From a virus, in IMG/VR virus record IMGVR_UViG_3300044833_000309, positions 1 through 25,812 of that record: a stretch of DNA of 25,812 bases; one strand, given 5' to 3'. The translations under genes were made by a program, and so were the position numbers. Of the stretch, positions 11,372-22,506 are shown piece by piece (the stretch's first letter is position 1; the number at the start of each line of letters is the position of its first letter). A model generated the notes under the pieces. That model was not told the origin of the DNA. It did not search any database and saw only the letters and a list, made by a program, of their open reading frames with translations.

Positions 11372-11431
11372 TCATTTTCCCTTCGCCTTCAGCCCGAGCT
11401 GCCGGCGGATGGCCTCTGAACGGCCAAGCTC
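11372..11431 (-). pseudogene. C-terminal remnant of a second ribbon-helix-helix protein
   Basis: Directly after the RHH gene, a minus-strand frame reads ELGRSEAIRRQLGLKAKGK and stops at 11372-11374. The SRxEAIRR-x-LGLKAKGK ending is typical of small RHH/CopG-type proteins, usually with a few more residues between EAIRR and LGLK. No start or N-terminal half is present, so it looks like the scar of another RHH gene. Confidence 0.5.
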
Positions 11432-11597
11432 ATTTTTTCAAATGGCCGTGCTCAACGAGATAGTCCGTCAAAATCTTTTCGACCATGCCTGCAGTGGTTC
11501 GTTGGTCGCGGCGCGCGGCCTTATCAATCGCAGCCTTCAAGGACGGCGTGATGCGGAGCCCGACTGAGACGGACTTAGTTTCTTGCTTATCTATCAT
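11430..11597 (-). CDS. ribbon-helix-helix (Arc/CopG-like) regulator, 55 aa
   Basis: ATG 11597 to TGA 11430 encodes a 55-residue protein. The N-terminal beta strand (KQETKSVSVGLRITPSLKAA) and two helices (IDKAARRDQRTTAGMVEKIL, then TDYLVEHGHLKK) match the RHH fold. In that fold a dimer inserts a two-stranded sheet into the major groove of inverted operator repeats. It faces away from the operon at 11725, and the space between holds inverted TTGCTAGT/ACTAGCAA and GCTATA/TATAGC repeats over a strong promoter. It is therefore probably the autoregulator of this module; that is inference. An antitoxin role is possible, but no toxin is adjacent. Confidence 0.7.
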   Translation of the reverse strand: MIDKQETKSVSVGLRITPSLKAAIDKAARRDQRTTAGMVEKILTDYLVEHGHLKK

Positions 11598-11598
11598 T

Positions 11599-11656
11599 GC
11601 TATAAATTGCTAGTTGACATGATTAGTGACGGTAACTATATAGCATTTACTAGCAA
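11599..11656. promoter_or_regulatory. nested inverted repeats, candidate RHH operators
   Basis: GCTATA (11599-11604) pairs with TATAGC (11639-11644), and TTGCTAGT (11607-11614) pairs with ACTAGCAA (11649-11656). The arms bracket the predicted promoter in a strikingly AT-rich stretch between divergent genes, the normal place for an autoregulatory operator. Confidence 0.55.
11614..11642 (+). promoter_or_regulatory. near-consensus sigma-70 promoter
   Basis: The -35 TTGACA (11614-11619) and -10 TATATA (11637-11642) are separated by exactly 17 bases. It points at the operon starting at 11725 and is unusually close to the housekeeping consensus for a high-GC alphaproteobacterium. Confidence 0.7.
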
Positions 11657-11664
11657 AAGCAAGC

Positions 11665-11698
11665 GGCCCGCAACGGTGCTTGAACACCGGAGCGGGCC
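11665..11698 (+). other. structured 5' leader, nested hairpin
   Basis: The outer stem GGCCCGC (11665-11671) / GCGGGCC (11692-11698) encloses an inner stem CGGTG (11674-11678) / CACCG (11685-11689) with a 6-base loop and symmetric 2-base bulges. It sits between the promoter and ATG 11725, so it would form in the untranslated leader. No T-run follows, so simple termination is unlikely. Confidence 0.55.
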
Positions 11699-11724
11699 TG
11701 ACTCAAGCCAGAAAGGGTTAGTAA

Positions 11725-11928
11725 ATGGCTCAAGCTATTTCACAGAATATCAGACTTTCCACCTTATTTGTTGATCCGTTCTTGCGCTCTGCCTTCGCTA
11801 CCGTTGAAGACGACGGCGGCTTAGGCGAGCTGGTCGAAACGGATCACCCGCGCACCTTGGACGGCGGCGCCGCGGAGCGGATGACGGAAACGACCGGCCG
11901 CCGTCTCTTCGCGTTGGTGGAGGGCTGA
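11725..11928 (+). CDS. small hypothetical protein, first gene of RHH-linked operon
   Basis: The 67-residue product begins MAQAISQNIRLSTLFVDPFL and is followed by an acidic, Gly-rich second half ending AERMTETTGRRLFALVEG. AAAGGG before the ATG (11711-11716) serves as the ribosome binding site. It is the first gene after the promoter and hairpin leader, and the next gene starts 3 bases after its stop, so the two are surely co-transcribed. I recognise no family. It has no membrane segment. Confidence 0.65.
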   Translation: MAQAISQNIRLSTLFVDPFLRSAFATVEDDGGLGELVETDHPRTLDGGAAERMTETTGRRLFALVEG

Positions 11929-11931
11929 CCG

Positions 11932-12189
11932 ATGACCGCCACAGAAACCAAACCCGACGAACTCGGTGACATCGATCGCCGCATTGATCTAGAAAACGCG
12001 GTTTGCAACGTGAGGGACATGGCGGCGCTCTGCCTTGTCGCCTTGGAGCACGCCGGCACGCCTGAAAGCGAATACGTCAAGGTCACCAAAGAAAATTGGC
12101 GGCTTCTATCGTTCGCGCTCGGCAAGCAAGAGGATTTTGCGAACTTGCTGGCGAGCACGTTCTATACCGAAAAAACGGTGGAGGCGTGA
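11932..12189 (+). CDS. small hypothetical protein, operon gene 2
   Basis: The 85-residue, mostly helical acidic product (MTATETKPDELGDIDRRIDL, then NAVCNVRDMAALCLVALEHA) ends in FALGKQEDFANLLASTFYTE. The spacing is tight: 3 bases after the previous stop and 3 bases before the next start. GGAGGGC sits inside the end of the preceding gene (11922-11928). The composition suggests a soluble helical bundle. The family is unknown to me; small proteins of this kind accompany accessory islands in rhizobia. Confidence 0.65.
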   Translation: MTATETKPDELGDIDRRIDLENAVCNVRDMAALCLVALEHAGTPESEYVKVTKENWRLLSFALGKQEDFANLLASTFYTEKTVEA

Positions 12190-12192
12190 CGG

Positions 12193-12822
12193 ATGGCCAA
12201 GCACGTTCCACCGCCCACAGGCGAGCCGCTGGAGTCGGTTTCTCCCGAGCTGGCTATGCAGGAGGCCCAGCGCATAGCAACGCTCCAGCGCCTTCGAGGC
12301 CTCCGCAAAGAGGCCCGCGACGAGATAGATCGGTTGCTCAACTTTCTCGACGCCAGCGACCTTGATCCTGATCTTGAGGAAACCGCCGACGCTGAGCCGT
12401 CACTCGGATGGACGAATCCGGGCCCTTCTCAGTGCAGCAACTGCGGCGGCATCGAGGACCTTGAGCATGACGACTGCGACGACGAGCCCAGCTTGGGCAG
12501 CGGTGCGGCCGCTGTGTACAGCACTCAGAGCCATTGGTCCCAGCTCGGCGGCGGCAGTGATGACCGCGAAGAGGATGCCGGCGATAGTTGCGAAGAAGAA
12601 AACGAGCACTGCGACGGCCACGCGGACTCTGAACCGTCGCTAGGCTGGCCGGAAGGCATGGCACAAGGCCAAGGTCGTTGGGGCGGGACCGATGATCGCG
12701 AAGTATCCGCCGAGCCAAGTGCAGCTTGCGTCGAGATCGCGCGCAAGCGCCACAACCATACGAGCATTTGCAACGTGGCGCCGGTGAACGGCGAGTGGTG
12801 GAAAATCGAGAAGGTGGATTGA
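12193..12822 (+). CDS. EPSLG-repeat acidic protein, operon gene 3
   Basis: The 209-residue product has an N-terminal helical region (residues 17-55, LAMQEAQRIATLQRLRGLRK, then ARDEIDRLLNFLDA). A highly acidic low-complexity region follows, punctuated by EPSLG at residues 68-72, 98-102 and 147-151 and a degenerate EPSAA at 174-178. DDREED-type and Gly-rich linkers and several Cys (CSNC at 81-84) lie between. The last 25 residues are different (HNHTSICNVAPVNGEWWKIE). Proteins with EPxLG-W repeats occur widely in rhizobial genomes without a known role. The reading frame is continuous. The C-terminus appears to have replaced further repeats in this copy. Confidence 0.75.
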   Translation: MAKHVPPPTGEPLESVSPELAMQEAQRIATLQRLRGLRKEARDEIDRLLNFLDASDLDPDLEETADAEPSLGWTNPGPSQCSNCGGIEDLEHDDCDDEPSLGSGAAAVYSTQSHWSQLGGGSDDREEDAGDSCEEENEHCDGHADSEPSLGWPEGMAQGQGRWGGTDDREVSAEPSAACVEIARKRHNHTSICNVAPVNGEWWKIEKVD

Positions 12823-12864
12823 CGGTCCCAACTTGGCGTAGTCTCGGAAATAGGAGGGGATCAA

Positions 12865-13059
12865 ATGCCGAAAGAGAAAAGCACATCGGGGCTAGATGAA
12901 CTGTTCACGCAGTTGAGAGAGGAAAATCCGAAAGCCAGCGAGAAGGAACTGCAAAAACTTTTCATCGCCGCCGCTAGGGGGAATGAAGATTTGTTGCGCG
13001 AAGCGGCAGAATGGTTTTTTGAGCGGGAGTATGACAAATACGCCGCGAAGAAGAATTAA
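12865..13059 (+). CDS. small charged hypothetical protein, operon gene 4
   Basis: The 64-residue product MPKEKSTSGLDELFTQLREE, NPKASEKELQKLFIAAARGN, EDLLREAAEWFFEREYDKYA is almost entirely amphipathic helix. AGGAGGGG at 12852-12859 is a strong ribosome binding site. It is the last gene before a strong terminator at 13085-13112, so the operon probably runs 11725-13059. Family unknown. Confidence 0.65.
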   Translation: MPKEKSTSGLDELFTQLREENPKASEKELQKLFIAAARGNEDLLREAAEWFFEREYDKYAAKKN

Positions 13060-13084
13060 GCCACCGCTCCCCCTGACAGTCTCG

Positions 13085-13112
13085 CCCGCCGGTTCACGCC
13101 GGCGGGTTTTTT
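13085..13112 (+). terminator. strong Rho-independent terminator
   Basis: An 8-bp perfect stem CCCGCCGG / CCGGCGGG with a 6-base loop is followed by six T. It closes the small-gene operon that starts at 11725. Confidence 0.92.
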
Positions 13113-13256
13113 GTTGCCCAACGGTCTTTTCGATATCTTCATCGCCAGCCTCCTTAGGCAGCGACTTGCAAAAGACCCGCGCTAATGCCTCGCCATGCCC
13201 TCGAAGTCCGCAAAGAATAAATGTTGAAATATTAGACCCTCAGACAGCCAATCGAA

Positions 13257-13285
13257 AGGACCCCGGATTGCTCCGGGGTCCCTGA
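13257..13285 (-). terminator. hairpin terminator after PEP-CTERM gene
   Basis: A perfect GGACCCCGG / CCGGGGTCC stem with a 6-base loop lies about 95 bases beyond the stop of the minus-strand PEP-CTERM gene. On that strand it is followed by only TTT, so termination may be partial. Confidence 0.6.
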
Positions 13286-13377
13286 CCGCGCTGGGCTACA
13301 TCCGCCGCCGCCGCGATGGTCAATTCGAAACGGCGTTGCGCGAGGGCTCTTTCGCGCAACCTCGATGCACTTGAACA

Positions 13378-15510: not shown

Positions 15511-17047
<1,537 letters not shown>

Positions 17048-17058
<11 letters not shown>

Positions 17059-17683
17059 GATCGTCACCTGCAAAGGCGGATTTCCGGGCAATGCGCCCGT
17101 TCCGCCTCCGATAGTCGCTTCCGACGACCAAATGACCCGAGCGGACCGATGTGGCCCCGGCTTTTCGCTTTGCGCCATCGCACCGACCAGGAGCTCTAGG
17201 CTCGTCGCTCTCTTGCGTCTTGGACCGCAGACCGAAAAATCGCGGCCCGCTCCACCGGGTCCCGGTGATAAGGACTGCGATTTCGGAGAGGTTGCTGTAG
17301 GTCGCCCCGTCATAAGCAAACCCGTCCGCCAGCACTATGACGCGATGACTCTTGCCTTTCCATTCCCGGACAAGGACGGAGCCCGGTTTGATCCGGCGTG
17401 GCAGCACAATTTTGCCGTTCGGCTTCGCACCAAAGGCCTTCATCATCTGATCAAGAGCGCGCTGCGCCGAGCGGGAGAGACCGCCATAGGCCTTCTCCTG
17501 AATCCGATGCGCAATACTGCGCCGGAGCAGATCCGGGCCGAACGCTTTCGGCGGGTCGCCCCGATACACTTCGCGATATCTCACGCGCAGCTGGGCGATC
17601 GGCATCGTCGCCAACCGATCCAGCTCAGCCTCGACGGCTGGATCGGCAGGTTGAGCAGGCCCGGTCTGTTGTATGACCGTCAT
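17048..17683 (-). CDS. DUF2924 domain protein
   Basis: The 211-residue product has the DUF2924 pattern. Residues 16-90 ([20 protein letters not shown], then [20 protein letters not shown]) are helical. Residues 95-155 carry the [40 protein letters not shown] and [13 protein letters not shown] blocks. The C-terminus past residue 160 is basic and probably not conserved. ATG 17683 overlaps the previous stop (ATGA), and its own end overlaps the recombinase start, so the three genes are translationally coupled. The family is repeatedly found beside serine recombinases; a role in recombination directionality or DNA binding is inferred, not shown. Confidence 0.9.
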
Positions 17684-18036
17684 CGTGCTGCGCTCGGTTT
17701 CGCAATCCGGTAGGTACGCTCTCCATCAACCTTGTCTGAGATAAGATTGAGGTTAAGCTTCTTTTTAACCACGCTGGCAAAGAAGCCGCGCACCGAGTGC
17801 TGCTGCCAGTCGGTGACCTTCATGATTGCCGCGATGGTCGTACCCTTCGGCTCGTGCAACATCTTCAGCACGGCCGACTGCTTGGAGGGCGATGAAGCCT
17901 TCGATGATGCCGTTTTGGATACCGCGGTGTTGGAGGCAACGGCGGGCTTTGATCGAGCGGGAACGCTGCTCTTGATGGGACGTTTTGCTTTGTGAGGCGT
18001 CTTTGCGGATTTAGAATTCGATTTGCTGGTAGCCAT
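17680..18036 (-). CDS. DUF3489 domain protein
   Basis: The 118-residue product has a long Lys/Ser/Ala-rich disordered N-terminus (residues 1-52, [20 protein letters not shown]). A compact DUF3489 domain follows (53-113): [60 protein letters not shown]. This resembles a winged-helix DNA-binding fold. The ATG at 18036 follows AGGGAGAG. It is the first gene of the coupled recombinase cassette. It is probably a small DNA-binding accessory; that is inference from composition and context. Confidence 0.88.
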
Positions 18037-18204
18037 CTGGCTCTCCCTTGGATCAACGACAGCATCAGGTGCTGCCACTGACACGAGCCCGCGGAAAATG
18101 TCAGCGCAGGCGGGAGGGATCAGTCGAATCTCGAAGACGGATATGCTTCGGTAACACCACACACGCTCCTTCCCGTGCGGAAGTCGAGCGGATTGTGAGC
18201 AATC

Positions 18205-19097: not shown

Positions 19098-20682
19098 CTA
19101 AAGCTTAATGAAACCGGCAGCGATCAGCGGCCCCATTTCCTCCCAGCTACCTTCGATGATGCGATCCGAAGGAACCGATATCTGCCGGCCGGTGATGGTG
19201 CGTACAGTCGAAGTCCCTGCGGGAACCAACAATCGGATCATAACGCGACCTGATCCGAGCTTAGCAGCTTCGAGGCGGGTGTACTCGATAAGGCCCCAAC
19301 CTGCTACTCGATGTTTCATCCAGGCGAGAGCCTGCGACGTGGAGTCGACCTGATCGTCATGTTTCGAGTTCGGGAACGTCATCATCTCGAACAGATATTC
19401 GGCGAGCCAGTGTGCGTCGTTCGGGACATATATGAATCCATTTTCGATCGTCGCCGTCTGTTCGATCATCCGGGTCCGCTTATCGACCCGTGAAATGCAG
19501 CGCTGAACTTGATGCAGACCTTCTTCGATTAATTCCTGAATCAGCTGTGTGCCGGAGGCGCGGTCCTCTACCAGAACGACCGACGCCTTGAAGGTGGTAG
19601 CTTGCTCGCGAACAGCGCGTTTAAGATCGGGATAGTTGACCTTTTTGCGATATGTTCAGCAAGTAGATGCGCTGACTCTTGATGCCCCAGGTGGTGCAGA
19701 CGCTATAGTCATTGAACTCGCCGGGTTTGTTGGCGGTATCCCAACTCTGGACAATGCTGTCGAACGACGGGGGGAGTTCGTGGTCGGCACAGCGCTTGAA
19801 CCAGTCACCCTGGACCATGCCGCCGCCCTGCGGCGCCGGAGATTGCTGGTATTGTCCGGCGAAATTATATGCACCAAGGTTGCGGCGAAGTTCAACAAGA
19901 ACCTCGCGCGACTCCCGTTCAGGATGAAGAACGTCGTCGATTTCGCGGACATGGACCAGCCGGCCGTAGGGGCTCTCGATGACATGTTCCTCGCGGACCT
20001 CCGCGATGGCCGGGAGATTCAGAACCTCCCAGTTCCCCTGGCCCAGAACATGACCAATGAGATCGTCTTGATGCACACGCTGCATCACGATGATGATGCA
20101 GCCGTTGTGCTGGCTGTTGAGCCTGCTGAGCAGCGTGTTATCGAACCAGTAGTTGGGAAGATTGCGCTGGCTCGGCGACAGCGCGTCGGCCGGCTTCAAC
20201 GGGTCATCGATGATGACGAAGTCGCCACCGCGCCCAGTCAGCACGCCGCCGACCGAGGTTGCCAACCGGAATCCGCCGGCATCGGTCGACAGTTCCTGGA
20301 TCGAGCTCTGAACCAGTCGCGTCTGAAACAGCCTCTGGAAAAAAGCGGACGTCATGATCGCGCGACTGTCCCGGCCGAGCTTGTCAGACAAGTCTTGGCC
20401 GTAACTTACGTTTATGATCTGGCACGATGGGCTGTGGCCGAGCAGGAACGCGGGGAATGCCACCGACACGCACATCGATTTAAAGTGGCGTGGGGGCAGG
20501 GTAATGATCAGGCGCTTGATCTCGCCGCGGCGACAGGCCTCCAACTTGGCTGCCATCAACTCGATGTGCCAGTTCGGCAGAAAAGTCGTCTGCGGATACA
20601 GCTCGTGAAAGCAGCGCTGGGTAAAGGCGTAGAGGTCAGAACGCAAAATGGCACGATATTCACGGGGTGTGAGGTCAATCAT
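19098..20682 (-). pseudogene. phage terminase large subunit, frameshifted
   Basis: From ATG 20682 the first frame encodes the ATPase domain: Walker A-like LPPRHFKSM (residues 62-70), Walker B DFVIIDD (154-160), coupling motif region, and the start of the nuclease domain (QSWDTANKPGEFNDYSVCTT). It then ends at an artificial stop at 19621-19623. The next frame, entered near 19647-19656, continues the family sequence without interruption: RKKVNYPDLKRAVREQATTF, VVLVEDRASGTQLIQEL, then SKHDDQVDSTSQALAWMKH with the last acidic residue. It stops at 19098. A 2-base loss (or 1-base gain) beside an A5 run explains the break. Without frameshift the enzyme would be full length, about 525 residues. Confidence 0.85.
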
Positions 20683-21073
20683 CCGAGGTCTCCCCCCTGC
20701 CGCGGCGGATCCGCGCGATAATTTCGACAACGACGGCCGCGTCGGCCTCGTGAAAGGAATCGACGATGTAGTCGGCGGCTGAGGCGTTCTCGGCATTTTT
20801 GAAATGCTCGAGCACCATTTGCGTAAATCTTGGTTCCCCCTTGACGGCCTTGTTGAACATCTGAGTGACAGCGATATCCATCTTGGTCTTTCGCATGGCT
20901 TTGCCGTCCTCGTAGACGGAAACCTTCTTGGCGGCGGCCTGTTTGATCAGGGTGCGAAGGTTCTTGGAGCCCTTCGGCCGGCCGCCAGGATTGCCTGAGC
21001 TCCCCTTGCCGAAACGATTGGCGCGAGGCGGCTTGCCGTAGCCGCCGCCACCTGATGTCGGTTGCTTAGTCAT
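20675..21073 (-). CDS. DUF5681 protein (small-terminase-like)
   Basis: The 132-residue product has the DUF5681 signature at its N-terminus (RFGKGSSGNPGGRPKGSKN, residues 20-38) followed by a helical part (NLRTLIKQAAAKKVSVYEDG, MDIAVTQMFNKAVKGEPRFT). Members of this family usually precede the large terminase and are thought to act as the DNA-recognition, small-terminase-like partner. ATG 21073 overlaps the stop of the ParB/methyltransferase gene by eight bases, and its own stop overlaps the start of the large terminase, so the three are one translational unit. The sequence is intact. Confidence 0.85.
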   Translation of the reverse strand: MTKQPTSGGGGYGKPPRANRFGKGSSGNPGGRPKGSKNLRTLIKQAAAKKVSVYEDGKAMRKTKMDIAVTQMFNKAVKGEPRFTQMVLEHFKNAENASAADYIVDSFHEADAAVVVEIIARIRRGRGETSDD

Positions 21074-22448
21074 TGTGGTTGGTCTCCATTGCGATGTGAT
21101 TGAAGTGGCGGCCGCTTGCAGCGTGCACCGCGTCGTCACCGGTTTGCGCCTGCCAGCGGCGGATGGCGGTGTCGACGTAGAGGGGATCAATCTCGAGGCC
21201 GCAGAAGCTGCGGCCGACGCGCTCTGCCGCCATCAACGTGCTGCCACTTCCCAGAAAGGGATCGAGGACGACATCACCGCGAGCGGAGCAATCAAGAATG
21301 GCGTCGGCGACAAGCGCGACCGGCTTCACCGTCGGATGCAGGGCCAATAGGTTGCCTTCCTCGGTGCCACGTCCGAGCGAATTGGCGCCCTGATAGCGCC
21401 AGACGTTCGAGCGTTGGCGCCCGAAGCAACCAAGCTGAATGTTGTTACGATGCGAAGCGGTGCCGTTTTTGAACACATGCACGAACTCGTGCTGGCTGCG
21501 GTAAAGTGAGCCCATGCCGCCGTTGTGCTTGACCCACACGCACGTGTTCTTATGCTCGGCGTAAACGGAATTTCCGGCCGCGAGTAGTTCTGCCGAATGG
21601 CGCCAGTCCATACAGATGAAGTGGATCGAACCGTCGATAGAGTGGTTCGCAAGTAGGGTAAAGGCGGTCAGCAGGAAGGTCTGGAACTGCGAGGAGGTCA
21701 TTTCTCCCGCCGCCATCGCGAATTCCCGGTGGCGGTGTGCGCCGAGGCCGGTCGCGTGGCCATCGATTTTTACGTTCCAAGGCGGGTCCGCGAAGACGAT
21801 GTTGGCCTTGTTGCGGTCCATCAAGGCCGCGTATGCCGCCGGATCGAGTGCGCTGCCGCAGACAACGCGATGACGACCGAGGACCCACAAGTCTCCGATC
21901 TGGCTGACGGGCCGACCAGCGGCTAGTTCCGGCACGACGTCGGGCGGCCCGTCGAGATCCAGATTGAGAGATTCGATCCGCAGGTCGATCTCGGCGACCT
22001 CGAAGCCCGTCACATCAATATCGAAGTCGAGATTGATCAGGGACAATTCGGAGAGCTGCTCGGCCAGCACCTTGTCGTCCCATTTGGAAATCTCTGCGAG
22101 ACGGGATTCCGCGATCGCGAATGCTTTCTTCTGTGCTTCGTTCAGGTGTGTCACCTGAATGGTCGGCACTTCGGTAAAGCCAAGGTCCCGTGCCGCGCTG
22201 ATGCGACCGACCCCGACCAGCACGCAGTCGGCCTCATCGACGACGATCGGAATCAGAAAGCCGAAGACACTGAGGCTGCGGCTGATCTTTTTGATCTGGC
22301 TCGGCGAATGAACCCGCAAGCTCTTTGCCGGCAGGGTCAGTTGGTCCGGCGATTTATAGATAACGCCGATCCTGGCAAGCTCGTTGCTAAGCTTGTGCAA
22401 CGGCGGCGGAGCATTCGGCTTTTCGGGAAGGCGATTGAAGGTTGTCAT
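21066..22448 (-). CDS. ParB-domain / DNA methyltransferase fusion
   Basis: The 460-residue product starts with a ParB/Sulfiredoxin-type domain (about 28-125: YKSPDQLTLPAKSLRVHSPS, FGFLIPIVVDEADCVLVGVG, GRISAARDLGFTEVPTIQV). It continues into a beta-class-like N4/N6 methyltransferase, with catalytic motif IV DPPW (221-224) before the SAM-binding motif I DPFLGSGST (396-404) and HPTVKPVAL (371-379). DPPW points to adenine-N6. These fusions are common in alphaproteobacterial prophages, modifying phage or host DNA. ATG 22448 with GGAG upstream was preferred to 22481. No cognate restriction enzyme is visible. Confidence 0.92.
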   Translation of the reverse strand: MTTFNRLPEKPNAPPPLHKLSNELARIGVIYKSPDQLTLPAKSLRVHSPSQIKKISRSLSVFGFLIPIVVDEADCVLVGVGRISAARDLGFTEVPTIQVTHLNEAQKKAFAIAESRLAEISKWDDKVLAEQLSELSLINLDFDIDVTGFEVAEIDLRIESLNLDLDGPPDVVPELAAGRPVSQIGDLWVLGRHRVVCGSALDPAAYAALMDRNKANIVFADPPWNVKIDGHATGLGAHRHREFAMAAGEMTSSQFQTFLLTAFTLLANHSIDGSIHFICMDWRHSAELLAAGNSVYAEHKNTCVWVKHNGGMGSLYRSQHEFVHVFKNGTASHRNNIQLGCFGRQRSNVWRYQGANSLGRGTEEGNLLALHPTVKPVALVADAILDCSARGDVVLDPFLGSGSTLMAAERVGRSFCGLEIDPLYVDTAIRRWQAQTGDDAVHAASGRHFNHIAMETNHND

Positions 22449-22506
22449 GTAGAGCTCCGTTTGAGTTAACGAAGCTCTCAACTACTCCCTGCAAATCAGA
22501 AAAAGT

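Follow-up and report, generated by a model that had tools for sequence, protein, structure and literature searches.

The operon and its products

The window referred to throughout is the whole stretch of DNA analysed, IMG/VR virus record IMGVR_UViG_3300044833_000309, which is 25,812 bases long. It contains a compact operon of four genes on the (+) strand, here named A to D. A prior reading made from the letters alone (the sequence-only reading) had placed these four genes with gaps of 3, 3 and 42 bases, and the open reading frames are found exactly so. Gene A (11725–11928) encodes 67 residues and starts with a shared tag, MAQA, with GCT as codon 4. Gene B (11932–12189) encodes a small, acidic, all-helical protein of 85 residues, gene C (12193–12822) the EPSLG-repeat protein of 209 residues, and gene D (12865–13059), which has an AGGAGG site, a charged orphan of 64 residues. 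The operon ends in an intrinsic terminator, GCCCGCCGGTTCACGCCGGCGGGT plus a T-run (13084–13107, (+) strand), whose 10-pair G+C-rich stem and T-run bear out its description as strong.

Taken by itself, the open length of A, B and D barely beats chance (P 0.1, 0.03 and 0.04, respectively; 0.0025 for C). A, B and C are certain genes because they have homologues, as described below; D, for which homologues were undetected, is a putative gene on the basis of its good AGGAGG site and its position ahead of the terminator.

As the sequence-only reading had supposed, none of the four products belongs to a named family: searches of Pfam, PHROGs, NCBIfam and PADLOC were empty or gave noise. Weak matches to NPHP3_hel, TPR_TEX10, Rv0078B and PRK09294 were under the cut-off and were judged to be chance. 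The model of B has 4 helices (pLDDT 68), and a PDB fold search with it gave no match (E above 6). Product C carries the expected three EPSLG motifs, at residues 68, 98 and 147, with a degenerate EPSAA at 174, and it is indeed acidic (net charge −30, pI 4.3). Its model has a single confident helix (residues 18–54), with the remainder predicted to be disordered. Across the family of C, an invariant helix, RKEARDEIDRL, is followed by acidic EPSLG repeats. A literature search on EPSLG proteins, and on the hairpin leader described next, found nothing relevant.

The hairpin leader

Gene A is preceded by a structured RNA leader (11660–11724, (+) strand), consisting of a hairpin with arms at 11665–11678 and 11685–11698, then an unpaired UNAC motif and a ribosome site. 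It folds with −31.1 kcal/mol (z = −3.6), in keeping with the strong leader proposed earlier. When ten leaders were aligned by a procedure blind to structure, they shared one hairpin with 85% of cells paired; 9 of its 14 pairs showed double-sided changes, and the covariation was 0.471, compared with at most 0.165 when the partner was slid. A search with a model made from these ten gave leader matches in 93 out of 297 related genomes. In an alignment of 88 sequences all 14 pairs have compensatory changes, with a score of 0.438 against at most 0.087 for slid partners, this alignment being fitted to the model, which flatters the score, and including ten short antisense matches. A held-out model (R2), built without the window sequence, gave 11660–11723 as its sole match in the window (32.8 bits, E 4e-10, Infernal E-values being rough). 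No Rfam family matches the hairpin leader above its gathering score.

An unpaired U-A-A-C is conserved 3′ of the hairpin. A boxA-like reading of GGCUCUAAC is at most tentative: the CUC part shifts with its pairing partner, and UAAC alone is therefore independently conserved.

Two further types of leader were seen. One is a hairpin variant that has no divergent ribbon-helix-helix (RHH) gene and ends in CCAAAAGGGGTAACTCATGGCTCAAGCTATC or similar (L152, L158, L160, L163, L175, L187, L188 and L192); these leaders mostly have no long reading frame downstream. The other is a second, different leader about 150 bases upstream of the EPSLG gene, with the pattern TATGCCGGG..CCAGAG..CTTAAAAGCG..GTTCTCAC..CCCGG..GTGAGAAGCC (L050, L051, L053-L055, L062, L069, L075, L076, L078, L082 and L008). 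Compensatory changes occur in 14 of its 24 predicted pairs, and it matches the Rfam family sRNA-Xcc1 weakly, below threshold (27.4 bits; gathering score 53).

The divergent RHH gene and its putative operator

Pointing away from the operon is a gene for a predicted RHH (Arc-like) repressor of 55 residues (11430–11597, (−) strand), which matches the Arc-like repressor PHROG 582 (E 4.8e-5) and is scored weakly by Pfam. The promoter that had been called strong is present upstream of gene A: a −35 element, TTGACA, of exact consensus (11614–11619, (+) strand) is followed after 17 nt by a −10 element, TATATA (11637–11642, (+) strand). A standard consensus scan, whose −10 rule is stricter, does not list this promoter (11614–11642). 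Flanking it are two putative operator arms of 16 nt each, TTGCTATAAATTGCTA on the left (11597–11612) and TAGCATTTACTAGCAA on the right (11641–11656), which form an inverted repeat that is 81% complementary. The right arm overlaps the −10 element and the likely transcription start. An RHH-controlled divergent operon is marked by a divergent RHH gene and an inverted repeat over the promoter, and the locus has both.

The same organisation is common among the leader loci. With an RHH profile whose training set was twelve of these proteins, including the window RHH, a divergent RHH gene was found within 450 bases upstream at 58 of 78 leader loci, compared with 0 of 78 downstream control stretches. 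An RHH protein of the cassette type is assigned to PHROG 4738. At the 20 of 78 loci where no divergent RHH gene was detected, some have an XRE-type regulator (L140 and L146) and others have none, and in a subset no long reading frame follows the leader. L140 and L146 also have a AGGTGTCA-type upstream repeat, and a similar upstream sequence occurs at L190 and L193.

Perfect inverted-repeat arms of at least 7 are present at 52% of the RHH loci and in 8% of shuffles. The operators can be sorted into five classes, which pair with five classes of the presumed DNA-contacting strand of the RHH protein: GGTACC with [VI]Q[VI]GxRW, GATATC with V[LM]VR, GATAACAC with LVGVR, GTTTAC with [TS]AVR, and GATGTCATA with AVNVR. 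The match has Fisher p values from 3.5e-5 to 2.5e-8, which are overstated because the classes were drawn post hoc and the loci share ancestry. A small independent check is provided by a plasmid locus added later, which combines the RHH strand VQIGTRW with GGTACC arms. Given that operator motifs covary with the DNA-contact strand of the RHH, each cassette appears to have its own private repressor-operator pair.

The start tag and the interchangeable cargo

In the gene that comes first behind the leader, the product usually begins M-x-[QK]-A-[DET]..[ST]T, and the bodies that follow are unrelated. This tag is carried by A, by EPSLG and Tat-signal proteins, by several orphans and by a phage protein of the Rha-like type. 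The fourth codon is GCT in 48 of 51 tagged genes, whereas GCT makes up 13.4% of the alanine codons of those genes (p 1.7e-38). This bias implies either that the constraint is at least partly at the level of the nucleic acid, or that the module is young and spreads by recombinational exchange. An additional stem pairing the leader with codons 3–4 was rejected as the cause of the GCT preference, since the upstream partner AAGCC is missing in many loci.

One recurrent cargo joins a Tat-like signal (RRxFL plus a run of hydrophobic residues) to a small helical domain (DPIFAAIExHR) behind it, and is found at L008, L053, L080, L084, L092, L094, L131, L132 and L134. Those of these proteins that were tested had no Pfam or PHROG match.

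The variability of the cargo bears on whether this is an RHH-regulated module of toxin-antitoxin type, with a toxin among A to D and an antitoxin supplied by the RHH gene or by a partner. RHH proteins are common as antitoxins, and the paired small genes with 3-base gaps and the mobile context would suit such a module. However, cargo behind the same RHH-leader differs from locus to locus, where a toxin would be expected to stay with its antitoxin; the RHH gene points the other way and lies outside the operon; none of A to D matches a toxin-antitoxin family; and there is no co-directional toxin and antitoxin of known families, as a type II system would have. We regard this explanation as quite improbable.

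Recurrence in other genomes

Members of the C (EPSLG) family were found in 53 of 392 genomes from the family of Bradyrhizobium zhengyangense. Clear relatives of A occur in six genomes (L077, L085, L092-L095), and at the loci examined A is always the first gene behind an RHH-divergent leader. The EPSLG gene follows directly after A at L077, L085, L093 and L095, about 3–4 bases away where intact. For B, G185 has a full-length relative (36%), placed behind an RHH gene, and B-like genes follow EPSLG genes at L061 and L085. Searching viral contigs with B or D as a single sequence gave no relatives, and D has no relative among 199 genomes.

L085 repeats almost the whole arrangement found in the window, with an RHH gene, operator (arms GGATATCC), hairpin, A, C, a B-like gene and a near-identical terminator; here the gene order is A-C-B. 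The N-terminus of C reads MSKHVPPPTGEPLDSLS at L085 and MAKHVPPPTGEPLESVS in the window. The L085 operon adjoins two tRNA-Ser genes.

It had been suggested that the other genes of the operon, and the RHH gene, be looked for beside EPSLG genes elsewhere. The inclusion of the RHH gene was well founded, as a divergent RHH gene recurs with A and C at all four loci where these two are adjacent. Recurrence extends to the B-like genes of L085 and L061 and fails for D, which has no relative. The four genes do not form a constant group: their order varies, D is an orphan, and other cassettes place unrelated genes in the same position. The sequence-only reading was thus right about an operon with strong signals, while the part that is conserved proves to be the 5′ control module, which it had noted merely as promoter and leader. 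On this comparative evidence, the conserved unit is the RHH gene, the putative operator, the hairpin leader and the start tag, rather than the four genes.

The mobile-element setting

The gene content of the window suggests a prophage or island in decay, from a Bradyrhizobium relative. On its (−) strand it carries a large serine integrase with DUF3489, clustered with a further gene of phage type, PHROG 11806 (15511–18162), a split-looking terminase large subunit (19098–20796), and a fusion of a ParB-like domain with an N4/N6 DNA methyltransferase (21066–22481). The N-terminal part of the terminase (19621–20796) matches PHROG 38, and 19098–19469 is C-terminal-like by eye; a frameshift or stop appears to separate the two frames. 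The window also encodes a sensor kinase and a PEP-CTERM protein and carries an IS3 element. Among public plasmids, its closest DNA matches are mostly from Bradyrhizobium, and megablast against phage and plasmid DNA matched the IS3 element and the histidine-kinase stretch and nothing else. As a complete element, the record is a candidate only. Just 3′ of the operon terminator there is a candidate BjrC68 sRNA (13249–13324, (−) strand; 25.9 bits against a gathering score of 39, E 0.00055).

Such decay, seen in the split terminase and the IS3 element, could in principle have joined ordinary, unlinked hypothetical genes, as the orphan D might be taken to indicate. This is contradicted by the recurrence of A, C, RHH gene and leader in independent genomes and by the covariation of the leader, and we find it very hard to credit.

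Cargo of mobile elements is expected on such elements or at their ends, and loci of this kind occur there. A tRNA or tmRNA gene is present within a stretch of about 10 kb at 18 of 39 EPSLG loci, and at 15 of these 18 it is convergent, with its 3′ end toward the 3′ end of the operon. The enrichment has p about 1e-8 or lower against an assumed background density of 50–55 tRNA genes per genome. Clustering at tRNA and tmRNA genes is expected for cargo of integrated elements, and therefore points to a mobile cargo cassette. The leader adjoins a phage terminase on a viral contig (L124) and is also present on a conjugative plasmid of B. barranii. The Rha-like cargo, the RHH assignment to PHROG 4738 and the window's own terminase and serine integrase genes point to the same context. 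No att repeats at tRNA ends or element boundaries were found within the sequence stretches examined around the loci.

Siting at element ends beside tRNA genes would also fit lysogenic-conversion cargo with steady expression in the host, in which the RHH protein would be a mild autoregulator and the hairpin merely a 5′ stabiliser. The Tat-signal cargo, which hints at envelope functions, and the strength of promoter and terminator are in line with this; the strict, private operators placed over the promoter favour tight control instead. We consider it a rather doubtful explanation.

A probable repressor-gated cargo cassette

The locus is probably a cargo cassette gated by a repressor and belonging to an element that is, or used to be, mobile. 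Comparison of the loci establishes that the arrangement of RHH gene, putative operator about a common promoter region, covarying hairpin, start tag, variable small genes and terminator recurs across the Bradyrhizobium family. Weighing against the reading are the 20 leader loci with no detected divergent RHH gene, the post hoc classes and shared ancestry of the loci, the weak Pfam score of the window RHH and the failure to find att repeats in the stretches examined. The cassette type is a widespread bacterial one, previously unrecorded and usually near mobile DNA.

From the known behaviour of RHH repressors, RHH dimers on the two operator arms would silence the cargo promoter as well as the RHH gene itself. 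Were the repressor absent, as when the element has newly entered a cell, or displaced, a burst of cargo transcription would follow; induction of the cargo upon entry to a naive cell is speculative. At the RNA level, the 5′ hairpin together with the unpaired UAAC and the constant initial codons would act through stability, initiation or read-through, and it may be speculated that the leader gives whichever gene is swapped in equal expression. We further propose, as a plausible but tentative idea, that the new cis-acting RNA leader and the constant tag form a universal expression socket, into which unrelated cargo is swapped, to be silenced by an orthogonal RHH-operator pair and released in a naive cell.

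Small early proteins of phages and plasmids bind host or competitor proteins. By analogy, A, B and C (the last largely disordered and strongly acidic, with one long helix) would most likely do the same, which is speculative. A rival explanation would be an anti-defence operon (anti-CRISPR or anti-restriction) of small acidic entry proteins, with the RHH protein as an Aca-type autorepressor. Small, acidic, fast-changing orphan proteins, among them the predicted disordered C with its charge of −30, a dedicated autorepressor and the setting in mobile elements and a plasmid all speak for it. Against it, Aca genes usually sit within the operon, and many cargos have Tat-like export signals, which are ill-suited to cytoplasmic inhibitors. 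There is also no likeness to a known anti-defence family in Pfam, PHROGs or NCBIfam (PADLOC covers defence, not anti-defence, proteins), which is weak evidence because most anti-CRISPRs are orphans. We consider this role unlikely.

If the cassette reading is true, it adds an undescribed structured RNA family that is common in soil and symbiotic bacteria. The approximately 58 paralogous repressor-operator pairs would form a comparative data set for an RHH-operator specificity code, useful for understanding and building orthogonal repressors, and the leader would be a search handle for cargo genes that have no protein similarity, possibly with functions in host takeover or anti-defence.

Comparison with known systems

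Repressors of the Arc/CopG/MetJ type (PHROG 4738 and 582; Pfam RHH_1) resemble the present system in having a small RHH protein, a divergent gene, an inverted-repeat operator around the promoter and implied autoregulation. In contrast, the cassette RHH proteins are a large paralogous set with apparently private operators and one common RNA leader, and most score under the Pfam cut-off.

Anti-CRISPR operons with Aca autorepressors offer a parallel, in that small orphan proteins of a mobile element come in a burst under repressor control, as is proposed for the cassette. The cassette differs in having a divergent RHH gene rather than an in-operon HTH gene, in its structured leader, and in that no anti-defence family was detected.

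In ORPHETs (terminal reassortment, known from type III effectors), a constant 5′ end consisting of promoter and start is found on unrelated coding parts. The cassette is similar in its constant 5′ end fused to unrelated downstream coding parts. Its constant part, however, adds a repressor gene, a putative operator and a covarying hairpin, and its tag is apparently under synonymous-site (RNA-level) constraint.

Br-REP1 and Br-REP2 of Bradyrhizobium, which lie in 3′ UTRs and intergenic regions, are likewise repeated hairpin-forming sequences of the same genera, with consensus sequences that differ from that of the leader (PMC5082802). An integron gene cassette was considered and rejected, since the hairpin here is upstream of the gene and downstream of a promoter of its own, whereas an attC would follow the gene and the cassette would be promoterless; also, the conserved CUAAC fails the RYYYAAC/GTTRRRY pairing of an attC, as judged by eye.

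The 'morons' of phages and plasmids are alike in having their own promoter and terminator, neighbouring tRNA sites and variable content. The cassette differs from them in sharing a standardised 5′ control module over unrelated cargo.
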